Positions 4,271-58,373 of a stretch of DNA of 64,000 nucleotides are shown piece after piece (the first letter of the stretch is position 1; each line of letters opens with the position of its first letter). The position numbers and the translations under genes are program-made. This DNA is from Bryum argenteum (Eukaryota; Streptophyta; Bryopsida; Bryales; Bryaceae). The notes below the pieces were generated by a model that saw only the letters and a program-made list of their open reading frames with translations, had not been told where the DNA came from and made no database searches. The stretch lies in assembly GCA_037043015.1 (NCBI GenBank), contig CM073324.1, positions 11,491,013-11,555,012 of the forward strand. The letters run 5' to 3'.

Positions 4271-6446
4271 AAATTTTATTTTTTCCAAAAACACCTGGAA
4301 CCCTTTTTCCGCGAACATCCTACTTGCTCAAAAAATCATGCATGAAGATTGAGAGCAGCACAATTGGGCATCAATGCTGGGTACATCACAACTGGATTGA
4401 TTGTGAGGGCAAACAAGATTGCATCCCAATCGTGGCCGCCCAGGTGTATTCCAACTCATGCAACGTGAGCCGTATCATGATTGGCCATACAATGCACCAT
4501 CCGTATACCCATCCATTTTATTGATATGACTTGTATGAGGGATTGATCAAGGAGAGTCTTTATACTACACAGCAATATTTTTAACTAGCAAAATAACTAA
4601 CCTCAAGATATTCGTAGGAAAGTTCTTACATTGTTAAATCACAATTGTATTTTGGAAAGTGGAGGTATGCTTAAAATGGTTGGACACCTCTGAAGCACAT
4701 AGAAGCCTAGGTTACTAGATCATACGGTATCAGTTCTCAAATAATGTCTTGAAATGAAAATATTCAGCTTGAATCTAAAAAGAGCCTGTTTTGTAGGCCT
4801 GTTTTGGAGTCAAACTGATCCTATCAATCGATTCTATATTAACTGGTAATCGGGCCTCAGTCTGCATTACGGGTTAACTGGGCATGTCTCTCCTTGCAAT
4901 CTATGGTACTTCCCGCACTTGATTTTGTTGATGCCAACCGTGACCAAGGGCTATGGAATCTAATACAGGAAATTACTCTGTAGAAAATCATTTCTTCAAG
5001 AACAAACCATACTTCTGTATCACAATATCGGAGATGACACTTCTGCCCGATGAACTGGTTCATTTAGCTTGTAAGAAGCGATTTGAACATTCAAAACTGG
5101 GAAACAAAAACAAGCAGACAGAGAGCGTGTGCAACTCACGGATTGTGTGTGCAGGGAGACAAAAAGATGTCAGTCAACCATGAGCTTTATTAGAAAGAGC
5201 ATCTGCTGTTGCGTGAGACAACGGTCGTCATCCACTATGTCCGCCTACAACCTAGTTACACCAACAAAGCTACGCTTTTGGTCTATTCAGAGACTCTGCC
5301 TTCTTCGTGATCTGCTGCAGCAAAGGTTTCACTGAAGCACAGTGCGACGACTTGTTCTCGCAACCGTCACAGCATTTCTGCAGATTCAGTATTGCTTGAA
5401 GACACCTGTGGATAAATCAGCAGCTTTTAGTAACTCGTCATGCAATACGCAACTACGTTGTGAAACAATTGGATACACACAACAGTATATGCCTTGATAA
5501 ACTTCATGTACAAGCTGTAATCGGTATGTGAAAACTCCTGCTACGATGACTCAAATCTATTAGTCGATCCACTTTACCGAATCATCGAATAGCTGATTCT
5601 GGATTACAAAGATGAAAAAACAAGACTCCAATACATTCAGGTGATTACATGGGGGCAAGCTCTGATAGAGAACTATATAAGACGTATGATTAAGACATTA
5701 CTAGGTTTTATATACTAACACCATGGCTTAAGGGTTAGTGTCCTACTTTTGGAAAAACCATAACATTCATGATTGGGGACTCATGCTGCACCGGGGACCA
5801 CCCCCTCGTGTGATCACACTCGAAGAGAATCATACGGTATGAACGGGAGGTGTTTCTTGTGCAACATTCTAGCCCATGATTGTAAGTAGAGTACCTTTCT
5901 AACATTCAGAAATTATACTGAACATTCTATATTGCTGAATGAAAAACTGTAATCCACAGGATGAGCATTCATGCATCGTTCGATTTCAGCTCAAGCGTCA
6001 CTGCTTTGCAACAAGCGTGTGAATTTACGTGGACAGTCGAGTGAAGGCTTAAAACAAAGCTACGACCCCGATTTTAGTATGAAGTTTCCTCAAGAAACCT
6101 GCCGTCCGCAGACCGAATTACCGAATTCCAGAAACCCCGAGCATCAGAGCGCAAACCGGTTGAGGAAAACTCTACGCCCTCATGAACTAAAAGAATTGAC
6201 TTCATAACGAAAACCACGCCATCTCTGAAATCCAAAAGACGCCCCAAACCCTAAAGCAACGAAGCAGGCGGATACCTTTCGGGATTGAACGCGTTCTTCG
6301 TCAAGCACGCCTGAATATCGCACGCCTGCTGCTTGCATGGTTCCTTGACGATAGGCATCGCCACCAGACCTAAAGTATCAAATAAACCTGTACGTAAAAA
6401 CTTCACCAAAGGTTCTTTTACAATCCTGCAGGAACTAAACTCCAAC
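4271..6446. other. Intergenic, no supported gene
   Basis: Short ORFs here are unrecognisable and interrupted, with no splice-consistent coding signal found. One isolated piggyBac-like terminus lies at 5734: reading leftward from a TTAG/CTAA it starts CCCTTAAGCCATGG. The right part (about 5950-6446) probably contains the 3' flank of the SMAP1-like gene. I see nothing else. Confidence 0.5.
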
Positions 6447-6638: not shown

Positions 6639-7884
6639 GCTTGACGATGCCGTGGTCTATCGCTCCCGCACTCACAAGTGTCGAACCTCTCAGGCTCCTC
6701 GCACTCACACATAAAAATTCTATGAAACCCTAAAACCCACAATTCGGAATGCTAGCAATACTTCTGGTAATCATATACTGCGGCGCAGAACCCGCTCAGC
6801 CTCCTCGGAAAGACCGCAGAAGCAACCGATAACCGGTCGCTGGGCGCTGGCTATGGCGGCGAGGACCCCGAAAAGATTGGCTATGGCAGACCGATCGTCC
6901 TTCGACGTTGCTTATCGTTCGTCGATACTTTCCTCGTGAATGCAAATTTAACCTCTAAAGTTCTTTTTGATCTGAATCATGTTTTGTGGCTTTTGGGCAA
7001 CTTATTTAAAGCATTACTTAAATATTTTAATCTTTTACTTTAAGTAAACAACATGAGGGAATAGGAGGACATATAGTCAAAGTCTTCTGGTTGTAACATT
7101 TGTGTTTGGCTCAATCTGAAAATTTGGACTTTTAGACCAAACTTCGGTCACTTCAAGCAAGAGTGAGAGCCAATGACAAATTATATGTAAAGTGAAGAAT
7201 TTTAGAGAGTTTCCAAAAATATGAATTTTTTGAAGACAAAAAATAGACTGAAGTTAAAGATTTTTGTAAGATGTTGACACAAAGTACAAAGTCAAGCATT
7301 GTGGCTCAATGGTGGTAGTCACTTAAAACCTTTTAGAAAAAAAGTTACATATTTTGAACTATTATCACATAATCTATCATTCAAGGCATTCAAGGCAGGT
7401 AGTTTATTTGGTGAGGCACCGCATAAGGTGTCGTTGGACCATAAGTTGGACGCGAATTTTTAGGTAGGGTTGAAGGCAACAATCGGATCGCAATTCGAGG
7501 TAAACGATAAATGATAACGAGGGTAAGTCCAGTAACAACTAATGCTACAAGTATCAATTTGATAATTCAATTTGGAGAATTCTCCAAACCTGATAATCAA
7601 TTTCTACACGCCACTAACTCAACAAAGAGAGTCATGCAAAAGAAGAATGCAGGCAGCATATTGGTCCCTTCCATTACCGAATCAAACTCTCCGTAGCCAG
7701 AGCCAGTTGGTCCTGGCATGATTACAAGAAACTCAAGCAGTGCTGTCCTAAGCAAGCCGTCTTTGATAGAAAACAGACCTTAGCCTTCCACCATCTCGCA
7801 AATGCAATGGTAGTAGTAGTGCCACTTTCAATTGAAATAATCAATGACTATGCGGTGAGAAAATTGGAATCTATCACCCTCTCA
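6639..7884. other. Intergenic between SMAP1-like and mS41 genes
   Basis: This contains the presumed promoter of the SMAP1-like gene (upstream, from 6639) and the 3' flank of the mS41 gene. It is AT-rich from about 6950. No gene, RNA or complete repeat element recognised. Confidence 0.5.
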
Positions 7885-21719: not shown

Positions 21720-22994
21720 TTACGTCCTAACCCAGGCATCTATTACAACATTGCAGAACTTGACAGTGGAGGAAATTCCCACACCGAGAGTTGGAGTCAT
21801 GAGTAAGAAACCTGCCGTTCCCAATGTCGCTTCTGGTGCAATAAGAACTGCAGCAATGGTAAGCGGTGGACAAATTGTCGCCACCTTGCAAAGGACCCCG
21901 AAGGCCGCAGCAGTGCCAATAATACCACCGGCCACATCCCTCTTTTTCAGGATATCCTTTAGGTGTTTCGGAAGAGGAAGCCTCTTAAGGCCTTTGAACA
22001 CCCCATCCATCGCCTCCTTGCTCGAACACTGCATTGCAAAGTCTGTCCTCAACTTGCGGCAAATGGCATACACATATTCATAGCAATTATCTTTGCGTAC
22101 ATCGTAGAAACTAGGGTGATCAATTAAACGATCAATCACCCAGCCCATTCGAACTGCAGAAGGGTTGTGCCGATCATCCATTTGCATAAAAAAATCGGTG
22201 TCCACACGCTTAGGTTTATTCGGAGAGATAAAAACGTTGATCACTCCCCCCTCTTTATCACGGTCCAATTCTCCGGTAATCCAAAAACGATCACTTGAGA
22301 GCCATTCCCAGGCCGGGTTGGGGTTCCGATCTGAAAATTGTACTTTCAGCGCCAGAAATCGGTGTTTAAGCAAATAAATTTTGCGAAGCCGCACTGCATA
22401 TATAGATGCCTTCCAAATGTGGACACTCCGATCTAAAAGTTCTTCACCAGGTAGTAAATCATGTTGTATCACTACGTGGTAGCTCCGGGGATTTGGCATG
22501 CGCTGGAACATTTCATAAAATACCCTGAGCCCTTCTGCTTCGTTCACGACCAAGGAACTAGCCACCTCGCGAAGCTGAGGCTGGAAATCACCTATGATAT
22601 TCTTGTGACAATCGATGCGATCGATTATAACAGCAATCAACGAATTCATCGATAACTCACGGTGGTTCGAAACTGTGAAACATTTTGCATCTAATCCTAC
22701 ACCCACACAAGGTTCATTCGCGGTGATACGAAAATCGGTTACTACCCCCTTCTCATCAGGGTTCACTTTCTCCTTCCCCTCACGGTTCTCATATCCGGTG
22801 AGCCAAAGCTGTTCGGGGAGCCCTCCCACACCGCAAGATAATTTTAGCACCACACTTTTAATACGATGAAGTTTGTTGGCCTGGTCTGTGTCGAATCGTA
22901 TTTCATGAACGCGGAACCTCCAATCTGGACGGTTTACAGGCTCTGATAAATCATAACGAAATGATATCGTGTATCTCTTGGCCGTTTCCCCCAT
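21720..22994 (-). CDS. Unknown 424-residue protein with an internal duplication and hydrophobic C-terminus
   Basis: A clean single-exon ORF, not recognised. Two similar segments are visible: residues about 25-130 (RFRVHEIRFDT ... LWLTGYENREGK ... VTDFRITANEPC ... IIDRID) and about 215-300 (RFLALKVQFSD ... FWITGELDRDKE ... INVFISPNKPK ... VIDRLIDHPS). This suggests a duplicated beta-rich domain. A KDNCYEYVYAICRK motif follows at about 305-318; an Asn-Cys pair of this kind also occurs in LRAT/NlpC-type thiol enzymes, but I see no matching His motif, so this is only a thought. The last about 75 residues hold two long Gly/Ala/Ile-rich hydrophobic segments that could form a membrane hairpin. Codon use and length make it a credible gene. 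Start chosen at the first Met (22994). Confidence 0.65.
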   Translation of the reverse strand: MGETAKRYTISFRYDLSEPVNRPDWRFRVHEIRFDTDQANKLHRIKSVVLKLSCGVGGLPEQLWLTGYENREGKEKVNPDEKGVVTDFRITANEPCVGVGLDAKCFTVSNHRELSMNSLIAVIIDRIDCHKNIIGDFQPQLREVASSLVVNEAEGLRVFYEMFQRMPNPRSYHVVIQHDLLPGEELLDRSVHIWKASIYAVRLRKIYLLKHRFLALKVQFSDRNPNPAWEWLSSDRFWITGELDRDKEGGVINVFISPNKPKRVDTDFFMQMDDRHNPSAVRMGWVIDRLIDHPSFYDVRKDNCYEYVYAICRKLRTDFAMQCSSKEAMDGVFKGLKRLPLPKHLKDILKKRDVAGGIIGTAAAFGVLCKVATICPPLTIAAVLIAPEATLGTAGFLLMTPTLGVGISSTVKFCNVVIDAWVRT

Positions 22995-23377
22995 CGTTCG
23001 ATATCTAGTCGCCTGGGCCCATAAAAAGCTTCAACAGCAACATCAGAGAGGAGAAGATAACCTCAAAAAGCCGCGATCATTAACAAGACGACCGTATGTC
23101 GCTCAAGTGCATCCAGTTCTTCAAACACATCACACACCCTCCGATCAATAACTTGCAACGTCCTTCCACCATGGATTCCTGCCCCGAGTCGGCAATCTCG
23201 GTATAGAGTTAGATCTCAGAAGCGCAGAGAGTTAGATTTTGAGAATGGCAAGCGAGTGCAGAGAGAAACCCCATGTGATGTATACACCATGTCCGGCCCG
23301 GAGATGAAAGCGAAGCGGGAAGTCGAGCCTCGTGCGTGAGGTAAAGTTGACTGCTCGAAATGGACACAGTACGGCAA
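22995..23377. promoter_or_regulatory. Upstream region of the unknown gene
   Basis: Presumed promoter and 5' leader of the minus-strand gene starting at 22994. No clear motif recognised. It ends at a minisatellite. Confidence 0.3.
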
Positions 23378-32162: not shown

Positions 32163-32423
32163 TTAACCCTTAAACGACGAAGCATACGAAGGGGGGCAGC
32201 GAACAGTATTCGAGGGCGGGCGGGCAGTAGGTAAACCGTATACGGGCAGGAGGATCGGATGCAGTTGGCGGGCGCATGCAGCGCCGAATCTTGCCCAGCG
32301 ACGCACTGTTCGCGAGGGAGGGAGGGTTCGGCAGTCTCGATCAGGGTCCCCGCCCACACTGGCCCGCATTAAAAGGGAACGGAGTCCTCACTTTTGCCGC
32401 AATTCCACGAAAGCTTTTCTGTA

Positions 32424-32525
32424 GCATGGATGACTGGCTAAGAAGAGATCGGTTCGTATTTGTAGGCTGGTCTGGTTTATTACTTTTTCCATGTGCCTAT
32501 TTTTCTTTAGGTGGATGGTTTACAG
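32424..32525 (+). other. Plastid-derived psbD fragment (NUPT) inside the piggyBac element
   Basis: From ATG at 32426 the frame reads [17 protein letters not shown], then [16 protein letters not shown], which is the N-terminal region of photosystem II D2 (PsbD, normally preceded by about 18 more residues). The match stops abruptly after GGWFT, where D2 continues GTTF; here it reads DKFF. About 100 bp of plastid DNA were therefore copied into nuclear DNA. It has kept an open frame and near-identical protein sequence (S for the usual A), so it is probably recent. It is not a functional gene. Confidence 0.9.
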
Positions 32526-33002
32526 ATAAATTTTTTCCTTGTTCGCTGATGAATCTACGAAGTAAATTTATATTTTTATAATCAGTAATTTCACCAGATC
32601 TAATTGGTGGTACCAGGTAGATGAAACAATGACTGGATGAGAAATTTTCTTCATCCGAAGTGAAAGCTGAGCCACAGTTCCTGCAAGGGGCTACAGTTTC
32701 TGCAAGGAGCCACAGTTCCTGTACTGGAGCTGCTTCTAGCATTGACTGATGATCAATAGCACAAGCTAGCATTGTGGAATGTGGGTGATGTATTAGTACG
32801 CGCCAGTGCCGTTTCGATGTAAGTTTTAGGGCTCGAAGTGGGCGATCATTGCCGTTGGCATTGAGCTTGATTGATACGGAATTGATATGGAGTTGTGAGA
32901 AAACAAGAACTTGAGATAGGTAAAATAAAGGGCATTTTATTATAAATGTATCAATTCAAAAACAAAATGAAAGAGATAGATAGAAAAAAAACGGAATGTA
33001 AT

Positions 33003-33131
33003 TCACGGGTTAGAATGGTGAATCACAAAACATTCACCCATGCATACGGACACGTTACAAGTAGGACAATACCACTGGCGCCTCTTTTTACAAACCACAC
33101 ATCGGCGTCGTAAACGAGCATCATGCCCCTT
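33003..33131 (-). pseudogene. C-terminal cysteine-rich domain of the piggyBac transposase, beyond an in-frame TAG
   Basis: Directly downstream of the TAG and in the same frame lie 42 sense codons and then TGA (33003-33005). They encode a CVVC ... YCPTC ... C ... C ... HH pattern, i.e. the zinc-binding cysteine-rich domain that piggyBac transposases need to recognise their ends. No frameshift separates it from the catalytic domain. Either a single recent nonsense change disabled the transposase, or the stop is read through or removed by splicing. Confidence 0.85.
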
Positions 33132-35771
33132 CTACGCCATGGTGTAGTGCAACTTCCCGGGATTCGGGACAACCGCCTCGGGCATGCATGTGGCTTTCTC
33201 TTCGGGCACCTCTGTCAACAAGTTAGCAATATCCACATAGAATTGCAAATTGGAGATAGGTTTAGAACCTCTACTCACCATTGCTTTCTTATACAAAATC
33301 CATGAGTTCAAAAATGATTGATCTAAGATATGGAAAAAAATTTTGTGCCACCACTTATGATCCCTTCTTTGCAAAGTATAATAACCCCTCAATTGGTCAT
33401 GCACATCAACGCCCCTCATGTGCTCTTGATAATGCAACAATACCGGGGACGCCGGAATTTCAATATTTCCACCTATATGCCAACGGGTTATAAACAACAA
33501 TTTAGAGCTATCTACCGGGCTACACGCCGTTGAAAGCAAGGAAACGGGTTTGTTATCGTACCATGTAACGGCGCACATCCTCCCGCTCGCATGGACACGG
33601 TACCAAAGTTGTCCCCGAGATCCCCCAGACGAAGAGTTCGTAAGCGCTTGCGGCCACCCAATGCGGTTTGTTCTACAAGTTCCTGTCGCAAATATCCCAC
33701 GCTCCAACAAAGTCCAAAACAAACTAGGAGAAGTAAAAAAATTGTCACATGTGACAATATGCCCCTTACCTTCTAAACCGGCCATGAGGTTTAGTACAAC
33801 CCGGCCACCGACGTTGCCTTCTTCGACCGAATCCGACGCCCCACAATATATCTCTATTCTTTGAACATATTTAGACTCACAATTTGCTAAACACCACATT
33901 TTTAGGCCATATTGTGTCGGCTTAGCCTTCATGTATTGTCGGATTGGAGCATATTTACCAGTGTATTTTATCATCATTTCATCGACACATACGTTTTGTT
34001 CCGAATCATAATACATAGAGCATAATTTATTATGTTCTTTTACTAACCACTCGGTTTTTGCTAGTTTGTTGTAATTTGGGTGAGATTTATCTGTAATTAC
34101 GTGGTTATTATCTACTAAGTGCAAACACCTCAACACATCTTCAAATCTATCTCTAGTCATGCACCTTCTAATTTTTTCGGTCAAAAATAAGTCATCCCAT
34201 GCGCCCGACCAATGTAATCTTACATTTGGTACCTTCTTTGTGGCCATTAGCATCAAAATACCAAAAAACCTTAGAAGTTCTTTTACCGTCAACGGGACCC
34301 ACTTTTCTCCACCACGTGTCTTACCTTCTCCGTTGTTTGATGCCGCATACAAATTGGACATTCTCACAATTTTTAATAACACATTGTTAGGCCAGAATAA
34401 CATAAAAAAATCAAGTGGATTACAACACATGGGCAAAGAATTTACCAAACCTTGATTACCTCCACTCCAAATTGGCACGGGGATATCTACACTTGGTGAA
34501 TTCCACATCCCGGGGGCAAACCGCTCACTTACCGGTAAGTTAGAGAATTCGATGAATGAAAGATCACAATCAAAGCCTAATTCATGTGTTACATTAGAAG
34601 AAATGATAAACCATTTTTTAGAGTTGGGTGTTAATTCCATGTTGTTTAATTTATCTATGTCATTGGAAATGAAGGAAGAACTTTCACCGGGAATATAAGT
34701 GCAATCACTAGAATCATTTTCAGAGGGACTTGGGGTCCTAAGGTTACAACCCCAAAGTTGAACCTCACTAATTCTTCCCATGTCCACATTTTCATCAATT
34801 AGTTTCACAACGGCTTCGGGAACATTGAATGTTCCCCATGGCCCAAACAACATAACTTCGAACATGTCAATTGCAAGAATGGGATCAAAGAACTCACCCA
34901 CAATAGCACCCCAAAACATTTCCAATGAATAAGCCTCACTATCTAAAGGAATCACCAAATCACACAACTCACACCTAGGCACAATACATGAACGTCCCAA
35001 GCATCCTAAATCATACAATGGTGTGAGCAAATTTTTGTGAATGTCACTTCGCAAGGTCACATTTCTAGTATTAGTAGGTGCACTAGAAGTAGCCCACAAT
35101 TGCTCAAAGTTGCTTGAAGCTTCTAAATCTAGGGCGCACATACTATCATCTCTAAGTGAATCTAATAAAAGATCCACCGGCGCTCTTTCATTTTCCTGTA
35201 CCGATCCCACAACACCGGCATTAGGATCCTCGAGTAAAGAATCCATAGCCACAGGAAATGAAGGCTGGGATAAAGGCATACCTGACAATGATGCAGTGTG
35301 CCGCTTCCGTGTAGGCTTCTTCTTTGTGGCAATTGATGGACTGGCGTCTTCATGTAGCTCCACCTCGCTAGTGCACTCCCTTGATACTGTTGGAGGTAAG
35401 AGTCCCTCCACGGACTGATGGAGCAAAACGGTGCCACTGACACCCAACTCTAGCCTTTGCCGCACCATTCGACCTGCAGGAAAATTGGATGATCGAACCA
35501 GTAGCTGTTGATCGAATGCAGTTTCCCCTCCAGAGGTGCTACCGCGATGAACACCCTGTGCACATTGCAAACAACACAATGGATTATCAAAACCGAATTG
35601 GGATTCAGGATATGGCTTCACAGCCAGCAGGCACTCACAACGGTGATCAACTCCGGCCAGTGTAAGTGGGAGGCTGCTCCGGCCAATCAATGATGGAACA
35701 AAGCTCCACAACACAACGATGACGACAAACAACCCAATGCTAGCACGAGAATGTGCACCCAAATGCAGCAC
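33132..35771 (-). CDS. piggyBac transposase (PGBD4-like), stopped just before its zinc-binding C-terminus
   Basis: An 879-codon ORF. The DDE_Tnp_1_7 catalytic domain spans about residues 440-830. The three catalytic aspartates are visible: D597 in VCVDEMM, D676 in VTCDNFF and D789 in GVDVHDQ, with the usual second Asp at 792. Conserved flanks include MKAKPTQYGLKMW and HKWWHKIFFHILD. The acidic N-terminal half (about 165-430) lacks recognisable domains. The first about 100 residues, with a hydrophobic stretch, may not be translated; Met102 or Met165 are alternative starts, and upstream exons are possible. A TAG at 33132-33134 ends the frame, yet the same frame continues for 42 codons encoding a Cys/His-rich domain (see 33003-33131). 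Apart from that stop the ORF is unbroken. Confidence 0.9.
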   Translation of the reverse strand: MLHLGAHSRASIGLFVVIVVLWSFVPSLIGRSSLPLTLAGVDHRCECLLAVKPYPESQFGFDNPLCCLQCAQGVHRGSTSGGETAFDQQLLVRSSNFPAGRMVRQRLELGVSGTVLLHQSVEGLLPPTVSRECTSEVELHEDASPSIATKKKPTRKRHTASLSGMPLSQPSFPVAMDSLLEDPNAGVVGSVQENERAPVDLLLDSLRDDSMCALDLEASSNFEQLWATSSAPTNTRNVTLRSDIHKNLLTPLYDLGCLGRSCIVPRCELCDLVIPLDSEAYSLEMFWGAIVGEFFDPILAIDMFEVMLFGPWGTFNVPEAVVKLIDENVDMGRISEVQLWGCNLRTPSPSENDSSDCTYIPGESSSFISNDIDKLNNMELTPNSKKWFIISSNVTHELGFDCDLSFIEFSNLPVSERFAPGMWNSPSVDIPVPIWSGGNQGLVNSLPMCCNPLDFFMLFWPNNVLLKIVRMSNLYAASNNGEGKTRGGEKWVPLTVKELLRFFGILMLMATKKVPNVRLHWSGAWDDLFLTEKIRRCMTRDRFEDVLRCLHLVDNNHVITDKSHPNYNKLAKTEWLVKEHNKLCSMYYDSEQNVCVDEMMIKYTGKYAPIRQYMKAKPTQYGLKMWCLANCESKYVQRIEIYCGASDSVEEGNVGGRVVLNLMAGLEGKGHIVTCDNFFTSPSLFWTLLERGIFATGTCRTNRIGWPQALTNSSSGGSRGQLWYRVHASGRMCAVTWYDNKPVSLLSTACSPVDSSKLLFITRWHIGGNIEIPASPVLLHYQEHMRGVDVHDQLRGYYTLQRRDHKWWHKIFFHILDQSFLNSWILYKKAMVSRGSKPISNLQFYVDIANLLTEVPEEKATCMPEAVVPNPGKLHYTMA

Positions 35772-35837
35772 GCAATTGCACCTCTACCTGTAAATTTGTT
35801 CAAAAAACGAAATCCACCACAACTAGGTTTCCAAATC

Positions 35838-36300
35838 CTAGACCATGCATGCATGGAAACCCTGTAAGTCAATCCTCATCAAAATCGGCCCATCGACCAC
35901 CAGGGTTCAAAAAACATGAAGAAAATTGGAAGATTTATTCCTGAATACAATATTCCTTCGACCTATCCTTGATGTTTACTCATATACAAACTCCAACCTC
36001 CTAATCCGGCGCCCTAGCCCGTGCCGCGTCTACCACAGTTCAAAAAAACACGAAGTAGAAATCCAAGATGTTCCTAAACTGGCCTCAACACAGTATTCAT
36101 TCGACCTAGATCCTTGATGTTCGCTCATACACAGACTCTCATGCATGACTGAAAACCCTGTAAGTATCGAATCCTTGTAGTAATCACCGCATCGACCATC
36201 AAAGTTCACAGAAAACACAGAGAAAAACTCCAAAATTGTTACTATGCTGGTCTGATTACTTAGTTTGCTTATACACAACTCGACAGCAAGCCAACGTGAA
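35838..36300. repeat. Three diverged tandem units of about 150 bp in the piggyBac 5' region
   Basis: Units at about 35838-35992, 36010-36142 and 36143-36300 share in order ATGCATG...AAACCCTGTAAGT, 'catcgaccaYcA', GTTCA(C/A)AAAAACA, 'GAAATCCAAGAT/GAAAACTCCAAAAT' and CTTGATGTTYRCTCATAYACA. They lie upstream of the transposase ORF, between it and the hAT insertion, and may be transposase promoter or binding repeats; function inferred only from position. Confidence 0.65.
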
Positions 36301-37836
36301 AAGAAAAGAAAATCATGACGAGCCATTGGGGTGCTGCGGTCAAGCAAAGCAGCAAACAAGGGATATGACAGGGATTCGAGGCGACCAAGTTCCATGAGGT
36401 TTTCATTTCACTATCCATCCAGGTCACAAGTTATTTGCCTCGCATTGTCCAACACAACTCCAGCAATTCGTAGTCTGAGCAAGGCTGCAAAAGGAGGCCC
36501 TGCAGAGATTTCGGTCACAGGTGTCTTGCTGGCCAGCACAAATTGAAAGCATCAAATCGAAAGGTCCCAGTAGGAGTGCTTATAAGTGGATCCAGCAATC
36601 CTGGAAAAGCTGGCCTGTAGATATATCCTCAACAGATACGTAAAACTTATTCAAGCGCAGCTGCTTAGAGTCGAGTCAGGTGCCTCTAGAATAATACAAT
36701 TTAATTTGCCGTAGTATTCATGCTTTTGATCCAATTTCCAGTATTAACATATGCTTCTTTACTGTGTACAAAGATGATAGACCTGGAGACCTAAATCCAA
36801 GAAACTCCATTGCAAACGAAAAACTCTTGCAAACTCCAGCGATAGTGAAACTCGACAGCAAACTCGACAGGAAACGAGAAAGTCTAATGCAAACTCCAAT
36901 AAACGAGAGACTCTGTTGCAAATTCAGCATTTGATAGCGTTAAATTTGATGCTTACACAAGAATCTCAGTGGAAAATCTGCAATTTGCATTGTGTGAGCG
37001 ATGAATCAACGGAAATCCTCACCGCAATTCGTCGATTCGCAGATTCTTGCGGTTGATGTTGTTGTATCCCCGCGCGCTGGCCCCGAGCTTCACCGTGCGC
37101 TGACGGATTGGGAGAGACGTCCTTCTCGACCGGAGCGTCACAACCCCCAAACTCCTCTGCGGTGTGTGCAGTCGCCGGCACGTCCACAGCCAGAGGAATA
37201 CCCTGTGGATTGGAAATCGCACTAGCAACCGCAACAATTTCAAGCATTTCGCACTCGTTTGGAAACCCTAATATTGGCATTTGCAAAGCTTGGTTCAAAA
37301 ACTCACCTTGCTTGCCGATTGCACTGCCTTGGGCGGTGTAGAGCCTCTGCCCCTTCATCTGGCCACCAAATCTCTCTCACAAACTTGTTCACTGAATCAC
37401 TGAAACCGTGGAATTCTCCTTCGTCACGTCTCTCAGTCCACCGTAAGAGAGATGCTACGTGCCGGCGAAACAAAAACCAGAAATTTCTAGGACCAGGCAC
37501 TGCAGGTAACACAACTCTGGGCGGAAGTGGCAACGAGAGTAGGTACGATTCGTCTAGCAAGAGAATACATGCATCAACCGTGGATTGCGTTTGCTTCTGT
37601 TCGTGAAGGAGCCAATCTGTAAGGCATACTCGGAACTCAGCACCGTGAGTCGCTCGCCTCTCTTCTACAGAGGGTGTAACCATCGCGAGGCTGTTACTCA
37701 ACCAACGACAAGCCAACGTACTCCTCCTAGGACAATCTAAATTTGGTAATGGCTAGCTCTGACAGAGAAAGCACCCTACACAACCGGCTCTCACAACGGC
37801 ACAGAGAAACGGCAAGCAAGAAAGCAACGACTTGGA
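36301..37836. other. piggyBac interior 5' of the transposase, no assigned gene
   Basis: Minus-strand ORFs (37303-37716, 137 aa, and 36966-37358, 130 aa) are open but unrecognised. They could be 5' exons of the transposase transcript or captured host sequence. About 36820-36920 has short repeats of the type CAAACTCCA/AACTCGACAG. Nothing firmer can be said. Confidence 0.35.
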
Positions 37837-38781
37837 GGCGGGCACAGTGTTTTTTTTTTTGGCGATTAATAGCCAGATTGCTACAAAAAAAAATGTCTGG
37901 CGATTGTCCTTTGAAAAAAATCAGTGCTTTTTTAATCGAAAATGCCAAAAAGAAACTAAGTCCAAGGTCAGTATGCCAAGTGGGCTCCAAGTAAAGAGAA
38001 CGTGATCTTTGACATCGCCAAACCCATTTTGAACTTTGATGCCTTTGATATTGTTGAGATCGCCTAATCATAACATACTCAAGGTGTTTACATTTAAGAG
38101 TAGCCAAATTGCATGCCTCCTTTACGGCCATGTCGCCGAATTTGATTATGACTTTAATGCTTCATAGCCAGATGGACTCCTCATTCCATTGCATTGAAGC
38201 CAATTTACTTTCTCTTGTACTCCCGTTATCGCCACAATTATGGCTTTGGTTGAGGGCTAGAAGCTATCCTTCAATTTTTCAATGTAACATTGCAACTAAG
38301 ACACCAAGTGGAATGGGAGGCAAAGTGGCAAAGTGATCACCATCGTCTACACAAGATTCATTTCTGGTTTACTCTTGGTCTTCCAGCTTGTTCACGCTCA
38401 AGGAGTCAAGGTTCGTATTGCTTTTGGCCTCTTTGCTGCTCACATCTTTTCTTAATTTGCTTAGAGTGATTATTTGCACAATGTGCTTTAGTTTATTCTC
38501 AATCACTTGCTTTTGTGTAAGCCTTGCTTCAATGGTGTACACCAGTGGAACAGAGAGAATGTCTAATCTTCTTCCAAAAAATTTATGTATTTGTTGCTTC
38601 TATTGCCATTTTGATATTGAAGCGACAATGGCTCGTAGTGCTCAAAACTCAATTGCATTCATTTTGCAATACCTTGTGACATGAACAGTCTGATGGCGCA
38701 TGTGGCCCCTACAAGTCCTTAATTGTTTTAGAAGTCTCAAGCAGAGGTTGACAACTTCACAAATATGGTGTTCGGGGTGCA

Positions 38782-41700
38782 ATGGAGGAGAATGGTCCTG
38801 CGCGCTTAGAAAAGGAAGAACGAGCAGCCAGTGAGGCGATTGCAAAGAAAGAAAGAGCACGCAAGAAGAAGGCAAGGTTGGAGGTGATGGCTGTAGCGGC
38901 AGCAAGAAAAGTCCTCCAAGATGCACGTGTAGGCGAGCAACATGGGAAGAAACGAGCTAGAGAGAAGAATGACATTCGATCCTTCTACAAAACACCTAGA
39001 AATCAAGCAAACACAGCGCCTCTTCGGGAGGGTGCCAATAGAGCCATTGTTGACGCTGTTGCAGCTGAGGAGTTGGCTACCTTGGATGCAATAAACCTCA
39101 GCAGCACTGTATCTATAGATACACCTTTGCATGAGGTGAGATTTGGAGGGATAGAGAGTAATACCGTGGAAGTTTTGGCTTCAACACCCGGGGTTGTGAC
39201 TTTTCCATCAAGTACTTCCAATCAAGGAAATAGCTCATTCGACGCTGAAGGAAGTGATACTTTTGTTGTGTTGTCGACTCCCGGAGTTGTGAATGTATCT
39301 AGCGATTCTTCCCGCTATGTATACAGTGAGGATGATCCAAACTTTGTGGAGTTTTCAAACGAAGGACCGTGGGATGATTTTGAGTATGGTAGTCTGAGCG
39401 ATGATGATATAGAGGAACTTGAACCAGTGTTGGGCTCTCAAGAGGGGATAGATAAACAAGCCGGAAAGAAGCCTTGGTCTTTCAAGAGAAGCTACGAGGC
39501 AACTAGGAAGTTTCAAACTGAATGGTCAGCTAAGTTGCCATGGGCAATGGGCAAGGTGGCTGATGATGGGATCATGCACCAAGTAAAGTGCATTCCTTGC
39601 TCAGAAACTGGAGGTAAAGATTGTCTTCTGAAGCCAAAGTGGCATGGCTTGAAGAAACATGATATGTCTGATAAACACAAGAAGAACATGCTTCTATTCG
39701 CAGCCAAACGCCCTACTACCATTCTCCAACAGCTCAACAATATCACTACTGTTGAGAGTAAGAGGAAGCGTGTACAACTTGCAACTTTGTTTCAGTTGTT
39801 GCGTGATGGACGTCCTATGGTTGAATTTGAGTCGAGATTTGCCTTATACAAGCTTTTAGAAGTTCCTACCTTGCCTACAATGCATTGGAGCGATGGATCC
39901 GGCTGGTTGATGGCCAGTCATATGTATGACTTTGTGAAAACTAGAATGAGGGAAATCATAGGTGCTGCAAGTTTTGTGGCTCTAACATGTGATGAGACTT
40001 CAGCCGTAGATAACACATCGTGGATGGCCATTCACATGTACGTCATGCAGAATTGGGCTAGAGTTCCCCTGCTTGTGCATTTACAGAAACTTGATACAAG
40101 TGGAGCTACAGCTGAAGCGCTTCTAGGAGTGATTTTGATAGCTTTGCAGAACAAAATGGGCTTAGATGCTAATGCAATTGCATCAAAGCTTGTATGTTTT
40201 GGGGCCGATGGCGTCAGCACATTCCATGGACGCAAGAACGGAGTAACAACAAAACTGGTCGACTCTTGGGCGCCATTTATGATCGGAGTGCATTGCTATG
40301 GGCATAAACTCAATCTGGCTATCCAAACATTGAGTGAGCTCATGATCATACACTTGATTGAGGAGTTACTCAGGAATTGTCACAACTATTTTGCCCAAAG
40401 TCCAAAGAAGTTTGCTGAATTTCATGCTCTTGCCATTTCAATGGACACAAAGGGCTTGAAGTTGCTCAAGAATGTGAAGACACGATGGTGCAGCATGATT
40501 GCTCCCCTTCACCGTGTGATAGCAGAGTATAAAAGCTTAATAGCAAAGATGGATGCAGACAAACATTGCAAGAAATGGGGTCCTCGAGCAAGAGTAAGTT
40601 CTAAATTTATGTTTATTTATTTTTCTTTTTACATTTGATTGGTATGCCTTTCATGTTTATATTGTTTCATTTTTTATCTAATTTTTTTCTTTCATTATTG
40701 ATATGCTTTCGTTTTGTTGTATATTGGTGTAGGCTTTGCTAGTCCAGTTGCTGGACCCTTACCTACTTATTGGTATGGCTGCCTTGCTACCACTCTTGGA
40801 GACTATGAATGTCTTGGTAAACGCAGCTCAAAAACGAGATATTTTTATCCAAGACTTCACGGCAAATGATGGAGTGCCAGGTGAAGTTGTACAAGTTGTT
40901 TGTGAATCCCGATACATCATTCTTTGGACCATCTTTCCTTGTGTTCAATCAACTTCGATTGTTTAACCACGAGAGTATCAAGATGAATTTTGAAATTGAT
41001 ATGAATGAGCTTGCACCAACTCTGGTATTCCTAGTGGGCGATAAGAGCTTGCCTGCTCGTCATGAGGGTGAAAAACTTACACGGCCAGATTTCACAGCAT
41101 TACTAGAGCGCATTAAACTTGATGTGAGGGGTGCGTCTTTCTTCCTTCTTACTTGATGTTTTTGATTTTGATTATTTACATCACATGTATAGTTTTGGTG
41201 CGTCTTTCTTCCTCCATACTTGATGTTTTTGATTTTGATTATTTACATCACATGTATAGTTTTGGTGCGTCTTTCTTCCTTCATACTTATGTTTTTGATT
41301 TTGATTATTTACATCACAAATATAGTTTTGGTGCGTCTTTCTCCCTTCATACTTGATGTTTTTGATTTTGTTTATTCTTATCACATGTATAGTTTTGGTG
41401 CGTCTTTCTCCATACTTGATGTTTTTTATTTTGTTTATTTACATCGCATATATAGTTTTGGGCTAGGAAATAGGAACTTCATATTTGTTGAAAAAATGCT
41501 TTCACTTGAATTGAATTTGAGACTAACATAACAATTAAGGACCTTTAAGCCTCTCCATACTATTGTCAAAAGTCAAGAGTATGCAAAATTCCATCAATCA
41601 CATTCTAATAAAGATTGCAAGAAAGTAGTTGGTTTGTAATGTGATTAATGGAATTCCATAAAACCTTTGGCCATAGTGTGAAGCACCCTTCATAGTTTAA

Positions 41701-42543
41701 ATGTGATTACTTAAAATCTTAGGTTTGAGGATATGAAGCGCCCTCAGAGAGTTAGAGGTGATCACTTAAAAACTTAGATGTGATCATTTACAATGCTTAT
41801 GCCTTATAGGTGATACATCTATGAGGCTTTGAAAAGTTTCAAACTAACATTGTTTAAAATACTTATATATTCATATCACTAATATTAGGTTCCTTGTTAT
41901 GCAGAAGCGGCTACTCAGATGCTTGATGAAGTCAAATCCCGCTTCCCCCCACAACTTGATGGACGCACTTGGAGTATTGTACCCACAATATTGGCGGCAA
42001 GAAGAGAACGTTGAGGTTCATTTCGGGAAGCACTTGACTATTCTAGAAGACTTCTATTGCATGCCGAAGTGGATTGGCAAGGAAGTCGTGGGGCAATCGG
42101 AGATTGATTTCCCCGCTCCTTGATCGCTCCAAGTTGGAAGAACAACAGATCATTTTCAAGTGTGCTATGATCCACAATTGCGATCATGCAATGGAGTTAG
42201 CCACCCCAGGTACTAGCAAAGCTCATGAGTTGGTAAACCCACTAACCAAGCTTTGGAGGTTGCTAGATGCAAATCCGCTTTGTCGAAGACCATGGATGAG
42301 TATGTCAAGTTAGCACAACTTGCAATGGTTCATGTCCTTGGATCAGTGGAGGATGAAAGATGTTTCTCTTCTCTCACTTTTCTCAAGGATAAAGTCCGAA
42401 ACAGGCTTGATGGTGACCATTTGTCCCTTGTAGTGAGCATGAAAGTCCAACAAGTATACACGTTGGAGAATTTCCCTTACGATGCTTGCTTCAAACAGTG
42501 GGTCCATTCGGCTGAGGCACATCGGTATGGCACTAATGCTTAG
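38782..42543 (+). pseudogene. hAT transposase (ZMYM/ZNF862-like, DUF4371 type), frameshifted
   Basis: Exon 1 (38782-40595) encodes a basic coiled N-terminus, an acidic middle, a TTF/BED-like zinc finger (CIPCSETGGKDC ... HGLKKHDMSDKH) and the RNase H-like core. Core landmarks are ALTCDETSAVDN, VCFGADGVSTF, GVHCYGHKLNLA and KTRWCSM. An intron (about 40596-40732, GTAAGT...TAG) leads to ALLVQLLDPYLL. The frame then breaks near 40870, at a C-run near 41960, near 42118 and near 42270. The fragments still show LMDALGVLYPQYW and the C-terminal dimerisation motif MVHVLGSVEDERCFS. A long intron (about 41130-41890) holds a minisatellite. Domains and order are clear; the frame breaks say it is inactive. 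Confidence 0.88.
41150..41462. repeat. About 66-bp minisatellite, about five copies, in the hAT intron
   Basis: The unit TGATGTTTTTGATTTTGATT continues with ATTTACATCACATGTATAGT and TTTGGTGCGTCTTTCTTCC. Copies start near 41154, 41220, 41287, 41353 and 41418 with small deletions and substitutions. The first unit overlaps the putative 5' splice region, so the array seems to have grown from exon-edge sequence (GGTGCGTC occurs at the exon end). Confidence 0.85.
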
Positions 42544-43350
42544 TTTAGTAAGGCCATTCCATATCTCAATCTTTGATTGCAGCCCGCATGATGCAATCTT
42601 GCTTAGGCCTTGAAGAGTGACTTGTAGTTTTTACAAAACAGTTCATGTAAATCATATTCAAGTCATTTCTGGTGATCATGTTTGTCATTTCAAAGTTTTA
42701 TTTTTCCATCTTTTCTTCCATTTGCATTACGCCATTGGGGTGTTGAAGTTTTTTGGTTGTGTTCCTTGTATGCATGAACATAGTGCCATATTACATACAG
42801 TGCTTGAAAGAGTGTTGCTAGTATGATGCCAGATATGTAGAAATTTAATTTACAACATGCCAAATCAATTTTTGCGTTTAGACGTTTGTAGCCAATTTTG
42901 TATACATCTTTGTTTACTAGTTGCCAGATCTTGAATGACAACATAAACATGTATCGCCACTTATTTCCTAATAATATTGTTGTTCACAAAAAAAAAGCCA
43001 AGAAAAAAAGAAGGAGAAAAATAAAAAAACAAAAAATAATAATGTAAATAGCCATATCGAACATCGAAAAGTCAATGAAGTAGCCATATAAGTGTTTGGC
43101 TTAAAACAAAAAAAAATCACTGGGCGGGCAGCTCTCTCGTAGCAGGCGTCGTAGCTCCGGAGAGCCAGGGATCCAAATCGCAAACGCGCTCAAGAAGAAT
43201 TGTTCACCCGCTCAACGGCACACGAATCAGTGTCTCGCCCCGAACAAAAAGATACCACTCCCTGTGGCTGACGTCACCCACTGGTGTGGCTACAGTGCCG
43301 ACTAGCAGCAGAACGGCCCCGAGGGGTCGCCCTCGTCGTTTAAGGGTTAA

Positions 43351-50221: not shown

Positions 50222-50270
50222 TATTATATTTCAAGTACAAATCATTCTCAATGAATTCCATGTACTTTAA

Positions 50271-50530
50271 CCCCTAAAGGTCCAAGAAAGCGGAAATTGC
50301 TTTTCGGAATTTCCGAAGGGAGAAAATTCAGCCACCTTTGACCATTATAATCTCAAAATTGGAGAAAAATTAACAGTTCAAATTCGACATTCGAGAAAAG
50401 GGTCAAGTTAACTTCAAGATCCTACGGTTGGATCTTCTAATCAATGCTTAGATTGAGTTTCTTTGCACCTGAAGTAAAAGAAGGTTCTTTTTGATAATTT
50501 AAACAATTTTGTATCAAGGACCTTTAGGGG
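50271..50530. mobile_element. 260-bp piggyBac-type MITE
   Basis: TTAA on both sides (50267-50270 and 50531-50534). Perfect 13-bp inverted repeats CCCCTAAAGGTCC. A perfect 8-bp hairpin CGGAAATT/AATTTCCG (50291-50298 / 50308-50315) sits 20 nt inside the left end. No coding capacity. It would depend on a piggyBac transposase in trans. Confidence 0.88.
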
Positions 50531-50534
50531 TTAA

Positions 50535-53241: not shown

Positions 53242-53245
53242 TTGA

Positions 53246-53672
53246 CCCTTAAGCGCCCACAATGTCGTTTTTTGACATTGTGGATGTGAGGCTCCGTCTT
53301 TGGTGCACAACCCCGCTTTCATCCTATCGATTTTTCATCCACCGTTTCTTTTGCTCAACTCCTCGGTGGGTTTACTCTACTCCCTCCTTGGATAAATAGT
53401 AAAAACCTTGATCCTCAATTTGTGAGAGTGGGCGAAAGAGATTTTTCATGAAAGTTTTGGTGGTGTGATCTTCACCCCTTTTTTGCATGGATCTTGAAAT
53501 CCATAGCTCCAAATGGCATGCAACTTGGCAGTCATACTAATTGCCATGCTCCAAAGAAGATCCTACGGTTGGATTTTTCATTTTCATCTTGTATTTGTTT
53601 TTACGCAGTTTTGAAAAAATCAGCATTATTACCAATTGTTAGGAGCTTTACCCCCCCTTGGGCGTTTAAGGG
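53246..53672. mobile_element. 427-bp piggyBac-type MITE with TTGA target duplication
   Basis: The ends are CCCTTAAGCGCCC and, inverted, CCCTTAAACGCCC (one mismatch in 13). The flanking tetranucleotide is TTGA on both sides (53242-53245 and 53673-53676) instead of TTAA. A perfect 10-bp hairpin CCACAATGTC/GACATTGTGG (53257-53266 / 53274-53283) with a 7-nt loop lies 11 nt inside the left end. Inserted at the end of a family-A repeat. No ORF. Confidence 0.82.
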
Positions 53673-53676
53673 TTGA

Positions 53677-58130: not shown

Positions 58131-58134
58131 TTAA

Positions 58135-58369
58135 CCCTTAAACGTCAGACCCAGCCCGAGGGGTTGGGTTTTTTTTTTGAGAGAATCTTGCTCATAACTT
58201 ACACTCCATCATACCAAATGGAACTTTTAAAATTCCAAACTGAGCACCTTAAAGAGATCTATACTTTCTTAGAATAGAGCTCACGCAAATTAAAAATAGA
58301 ATAATGCTAAAAGTGGAGTTTAAAAGAGATTTCGGGTGTGGTATCAGGACAACATATGACGTTTAAGGG
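58135..58369. mobile_element. 235-bp piggyBac-type MITE
   Basis: TTAA on both sides (58131-58134 and 58370-58373). Perfect 13-bp inverted repeats CCCTTAAACGTCA, sharing their first 10 bases with the 14-bp ends of the transposase-bearing element (CCCTTAAACGACGA). A 10-bp hairpin with two G-T pairs (58148-58157 / 58161-58170) lies 13 nt inside the left end. No ORF. Confidence 0.9.
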
Positions 58370-58373
58370 TTAA

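Follow-up and report, generated by a model that had tools for sequence, protein, structure and literature searches.

PiggyBac is a main tool for footprint-free genome engineering. A reference for comparison here is the element of Trichoplusia ni (T. ni), which has a TTAA target, ends starting with CCC and a C-terminal zinc domain, and whose transposase is the chain of PDB entries 6x67 and 6x68. In plants, piggyBac has so far been used via an animal-derived element (PMC10794571; a reference in PMC12732532). As for natural elements, PMC8086355 and PMC10140906 place them in fungi, plants and animals in general terms only, PMC10004981 counts PiggyBac among seven angiosperm superfamilies of miniature inverted-repeat transposable elements (MITEs), and a repeat table for the fern Ceratopteris (PMC6890710) includes 1,230 PiggyBac fragments. 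Here we describe a piggyBac element at positions 32167-43346 of a 64,000-nucleotide stretch (the window) of the moss Bryum argenteum, located at C4:11491013-11555012, C4 being contig CM073324.1 of assembly GCA_037043015.1. A first-pass annotation made from the letters alone had called piggyBac rarely reported in land plants. This is fair for the searchable literature, but it has to be tempered by the general naming of plants as hosts, the angiosperm MITEs and the fern fragments cited above. Our literature search on piggyBac in mosses, bryophytes at large, Physcomitrium and streptophytes found no moss piggyBac study, which is weak evidence of absence, as subscription papers were mostly outside its coverage. 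Our reading, to which we give a probability of roughly 0.94, is that the window element is a decayed piggyBac transposon of the cut-and-paste type, residing in the moss nuclear genome.

The boundaries of the element were sharply defined. The sequence CCCTTAAACGACGA was exact at 32167-32180 on the forward strand and at 43333-43346 on the reverse strand, giving a left and a right terminal inverted repeat (TIR) that are perfect over 14 bp and start with CCC. TTAA abutted both from outside, as target-site duplications at 32163-32166 (left) and 43347-43350 (right). Both the matching 14-bp ends and the TTAA duplications had been noted by the first-pass annotation. With up to two mismatches allowed, CCCTTAAACGACGA had three matches in the window against a mean of 0.18 in shuffled sequences, and none of 100 shuffles reached three. 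The two nearest copies of the left end were found on C1 (91% identity in the end region) and C6 (82%), each one base off in TTAA plus TIR. The element measures 11,188 bp with its duplications counted; once a hAT-like insert, described below, and one 8-bp duplication are subtracted, 5,902 bp are left, compared with 5,205 and 5,859 bp for the related copies at loci L064 and L065.

Within these ends, the main open frame of the transposase occupies 33135-35783 on the reverse strand and counts 883 residues from stop to stop, the first Met being residue 106. The PF13843 (DDE_Tnp_1_7) profile fitted this frame over positions 1-349 of 349 (E=1.5e-77), placing the catalytic domain at 33300-34421 (reverse strand). 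A PDB search with the transposase returned, up to E=0.001, only 6x67 'Transposase' (1.6e-29) and 9c0f 'piggyBat transposase' (1e-26). Counted from 35783, the catalytic triad is D601/D680/D793, plus D796, and the three residues of the triad were invariant in alignments of 10 and of 16 moss sequences. The same three aspartates had been picked out before under the names D597/D676/D789, a numbering that is off by 4. The enzyme had also been called near-complete, a description that we do not retain. An in-frame stop at 33132-33134, a place where the frame is open in L016/L063, cuts off the cysteine-rich C-terminal zinc domain (CVVCKK..CPTC..C..C; 33003-33131, reverse strand), which reads on in the same frame past the stop. 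A scan of 33018-33131 gave a weak zf-HIT match (6.2e-4) below the cut-off. Several other copies, besides L002 and L016/L063, have the zinc domain in frame, and unbroken frames including it reached 915 residues in L063 and 897 in L002. Because its own frame stops before the zinc domain, the window copy is broken and cannot make the full enzyme, and it is most likely a non-autonomous remnant.

The coding region probably extends further upstream, as a separate 5' coding exon followed by an intron. A block at 37307-37683 (reverse strand), also present in L063, L065 and L066, can be read as open and has the same Met throughout; it starts MVTPSVEERR in the window, and in all four copies a GTGAGT splice donor marks its end. 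Mismatches concentrated at third codon positions, with 67/135, 69/120 and 42/76 against L063, L065 and L066, respectively (50-58%). Such an excess was not seen against L064 (9/42), where stops and gaps interrupt the block. Were the exon joined to the main frame by the predicted splicing, the transposase of working relatives would comprise about 1,000 residues, as compared with the 594-residue chain of 6x67. A Pfam search up to E=1 found no match for the N-terminal stretch of the window protein or for the 5' exon as read in L063.

Two insertions were found inside the element, both already noticed in the first-pass annotation. The larger is a hAT-like element of 5,278 bp at 37845-43122 (forward strand), lying in the 5' part of the piggyBac, where it would separate the 5' end from the putative first exon. 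It shows hAT features, namely CA(N)TG-type ends (CAGTG...CACTG) and an 8-bp duplication, GGCGGGCA, present on the left at 37837-37844 and on the right at 43123-43130. Empty sites carrying a single 8-bp copy at the junction were identified in L019 (94% identity, gapless) and in L064 (88%, one gap elsewhere), the latter being one and the same copy as L014. The hAT-like element therefore arrived after the piggyBac. Three of its reading frames had no Pfam match up to E=0.1, and it contains, at 41089-41461, a tandem array of five units of about 67 bp each. The smaller insertion, near the opposite end of the piggyBac, is a 99-bp psbD fragment at 32426-32524 (forward strand), 33 codons of the photosystem II D2 protein (E=4.6e-18). 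No match to it was found in any other fetched locus. It represents plastid DNA inserted once this copy had arisen, or acquired in repair.

The transposase also bears the mark of selection on its protein. Between the window copy and L016, L029, L026 and L002, the ratio of nonsynonymous to synonymous substitution rates (dN/dS) was 0.07-0.08 for residues 441-883 and 0.16-0.32 for residues 106-440, values to be read with dS close to saturation in three of the four comparisons (all except L016). Before residue 106, two of the comparisons gave ratios of 0.31 and 0.62, and for the remaining two no ratio could be computed. From these codon comparisons, purifying selection on the transposase is demonstrated, and the long N-terminal region is shown to be protein-coding from about residue 106. 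Strong selection in the core (dN/dS of about 0.07-0.08), together with the predicted intron, might point to a host gene domesticated from piggyBac rather than to a transposon. However, active transposases likewise show selection between families. Domesticated PGBD genes, moreover, are recognized by lost ends and a single locus, whereas the moss element keeps both TIRs and TTAA and occurs in many copies with differing flanks, some of them broken. We consider domestication of this element very improbable.

The element is part of a large population. In the assembly (258,844,377 bases in 25 contigs), the PF13843 search gave 116 scored matches of 775 candidates, present on each of the contigs C1-C11, and 93 of the 116 had no stop in the matched domain; scoring covered the best candidates only and so favours good copies. 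The DNA of the window transposase matched 43 places at 72-100% identity. Full-length relatives were recovered at L063, L064 and L065, with TTAA on both sides and differing flanks (20 bases compared), and whole moss elements measured 4.5-5.9 kb, the hAT-like insert excluded.

The ends were even more numerous. The motif CCCTTAAACG was found at 6,752 sites in the genome versus 573 for the reversed pattern. TTAACCCTTAAACG was present at 5,945 sites versus 4 for its reversed control. Thus, 88% of the CCCTTAAACG sites (5,945/6,752), or about 96% of the excess over control, were preceded by TTAA. As judged from these counts, the ends of moss piggyBac elements are specific for TTAA at genome scale. 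When at most one mismatch was allowed, the 18-bp end of the window element occurred at 164 sites versus 1 in the control. The L002 transposase lies between a pair of exact ends, at C1:23339974 and C1:23345172.

C1 stood apart in its content. It is 44.1 Mb long, the longest contig among those whose length was seen, and held 94 of the 5,945 TTAACCCTTAAACG sites (2.1 per Mb versus 27 per Mb elsewhere), 5 of the 116 transposase matches and none of 132 scored protein-kinase matches. C1 looks gene-poor and piggyBac-poor, and may be a sex or heterochromatic chromosome.

PiggyBac is known best from animals, as PMC12732532 also indicates, and one might suppose that animal, fungal or protist DNA had been assembled into a plant contig. 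The distribution found speaks otherwise: the window sits inside C4, a 28.7-Mb contig, and with transposase matches on each of C1-C11, contamination is excluded for practical purposes. MITEs and the hAT-like element are interleaved with the piggyBacs, and the same assembly carries a moss-type LEAFY gene. The DNA-binding region of this gene, on C5, shares 102/106 residues with 'Floricaula/leafy homolog 1' (PDB 4bhk; E=3.7e-72), whereas the remaining four LEAFY sequences gave 2.7e-50 or worse. We take 4bhk to be the Physcomitrium protein and KMRDYVH to be the moss form of LEAFY. In the window itself, an MPP-beta gene had plant proteins as its best matches. By these sequence markers, the host of the element is a moss. 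The claim of a piggyBac in a plant nuclear genome is supported, and it can be widened: the land plant has an established population of piggyBac elements, with apparently recent activity.

In their catalytic regions, the first eight fetched loci fell into two sets relative to the window: L001, L002 and L005 were about 80% identical, and L003, L004, L006, L007 and L008 only 36-43%. The tree resolved at least five deep transposase lineages (window-type, L006/L004/L070, L003, L007 and L008), although the joining of L007 with L008 may be false. Its 28 moss rows, 11 of the 39 moss copies having been dropped, formed one group with 99/99 support, apart from two animal transposases on long branches; the root is weakly placed, as both outgroup branches are long. 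No relatives were found in viral contigs, either with part of the window protein or with an alignment (34 pattern matches, 0 confirmed), or in bacterial and archaeal contigs (39 pattern matches, 0 confirmed), and the tree therefore has only two sequences from outside the moss.

These data bear on a recent horizontal transfer from an animal, such as an insect, a nematode or another associate of the moss, followed by one burst. PiggyBac is considered to cross between species (PMC12732532), and one moss family is nearly identical across its 40 scored copies, which speaks for such an event. Yet the genome contains no fewer than five lineages side by side, with a catalytic core that in four of them is 36-43% identical to that of the window, and the tree sets its 28 moss rows apart from the animal transposases, if only from two of them and on long branches. 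Given this lineage depth and the moss grouping, a single recent entry is insufficient, and old or multiple entries suffice. We regard a recent transfer with one burst as unlikely. The moss line may have inherited piggyBac or received it, once or several times; with two outside sequences in the tree, we make no claim of transfer.

Signs of recent movement came from a second piggyBac family, at the L070/L071 locus (C4:13756800-13759900). A 1,401-bp L070 query gave 207 candidates, and all 40 scored copies, the query included, were 100% identical (rounded) over the full length, with bit scores of 2491-2527, on eleven contigs; one copy on C8 scored equal to the query. L071, downstream of L070, closes with a piggyBac-like end, TTAACCCCTAAAGGCCCAAGCG, exact at C4:13756797. 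With up to one mismatch, TTAACCCCTAAAGGCCCAAGCG was present at 136 places in the genome versus 0 in the control, and 39 of the 40 scored copies had an exact, TTAA-flanked TTAACCCCTAAAGGCCCAAGCG end at 1,702-1,718 bp, while 24 of 63 exact TTAACCCCTAAAGGCCCAAGCG ends belonged to none of these copies. Of the two ends of this family, this is the one observed.

MITEs related to the element, noted nearby by the first-pass annotation, were likewise found in the window. The one at 58131-58373 is 243 bp long, has TTAA and ends CCCTTAAACGTCA, and 40 copies were scored of 503 genome candidates, with 97-98% identity (window copy aside). Nineteen of 20 fetched copies had both exact ends, TTAA on both sides and different flanks (12 bases compared); 19 copies compared in one orientation had a mean pairwise identity of 98.5% and a minimum of 97.0%. 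Another TTAA-flanked piggyBac-type MITE, with ends CCCCTAAAGGTCC, lies at 50267-50534 (268 bp with duplications), and a related one at 53242-53676 has ends CCCTTAA(G/A)CGCCCA with TTGA instead of TTAA on both sides. Since copies are so alike, some piggyBac families have probably moved recently.

Several observations weigh against this picture, besides the near-saturated dS mentioned above. One L070 copy was read, and there the zinc domain is out of frame with the catalytic part, so that an intron, a frame shift or an enzyme supplied in trans is needed. The window family is not young: its nearest DNA match elsewhere was 96% identical, over part of the gene, and four relatives of the window copy were 81-93% identical in the transposase. 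L063 had no second full-length match, and its relatives were 70-90% identical. Recent or present activity is itself read from sequence likeness.

Elsewhere in the window, the reverse strand encodes a Helitron-type protein at 529-1962 (Helitron_like_N matched within 529-1233, 4.3e-54) and has, at 21720-23030, an open frame of 436 residues for which Pfam gave nothing up to E=0.001. Scanning the window for Rfam families and for tRNAs was likewise negative.

Working relatives of the window copy would make their transposase of about 1,000 residues from a spliced gene, in which a 5' exon is followed by an exon coding for the extended N-terminus, the catalytic domain with its DDD triad and the zinc domain. 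If the moss enzyme shares the chemistry of T. ni piggyBac, from which we reason by analogy, this transposase would bind CCCTTAAACG-type ends, excise the element at TTAA and reinsert it at another TTAA, and the same enzymes would mobilise the short MITEs that have the same kind of ends. A broader proposal, to which we give even odds, is that mosses have a deep, still mobile piggyBac branch of their own, with an intron-containing gene for a transposase of about 1,000 residues and thousands of MITEs, concentrated in gene-bearing chromosomes and nearly excluded from the largest, gene-poor one. If true, this would be the first demonstration of current piggyBac activity in a population of elements from a land plant. 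A lineage of plants in which piggyBac has moved naturally, and apparently recently, would offer a system for studying how plants control piggyBac and how it affects their genes, as well as a possible source of a plant-adapted enzyme, and it makes descent versus transfer of piggyBac in plants testable.

Compared with described systems, the moss element resembles T. ni piggyBac (6x67, 6x68) in its TTAA target, its ends starting with CCC, its DDD domain (E=1.6e-29) and its C-terminal zinc domain. It differs in its frames of 883-915 residues from stop to stop, plus the putative 5' exon, versus a chain of 594 residues, and in a full element length of 4.5-5.9 kb. With piggyBat (9c0f) it shares the catalytic domain (E=1e-26), but the moss frames are longer, and the animal proteins, whose branches are long, fall outside the moss group. 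PGBD5, reportedly with introns, and other domesticated genes are likewise derived from piggyBac, whereas in the moss the elements have retained their TIRs and TTAA and occur in many copies. The moss MITEs resemble piggyBac-type MITEs in TTAA, CCC ends, short length and high copy number; they differ in that their genome also carries elements that encode a transposase and have ends of this type. Collectively, the element belongs to the known piggyBac superfamily, and its interest lies in its host, its scale and the signs of recent movement.

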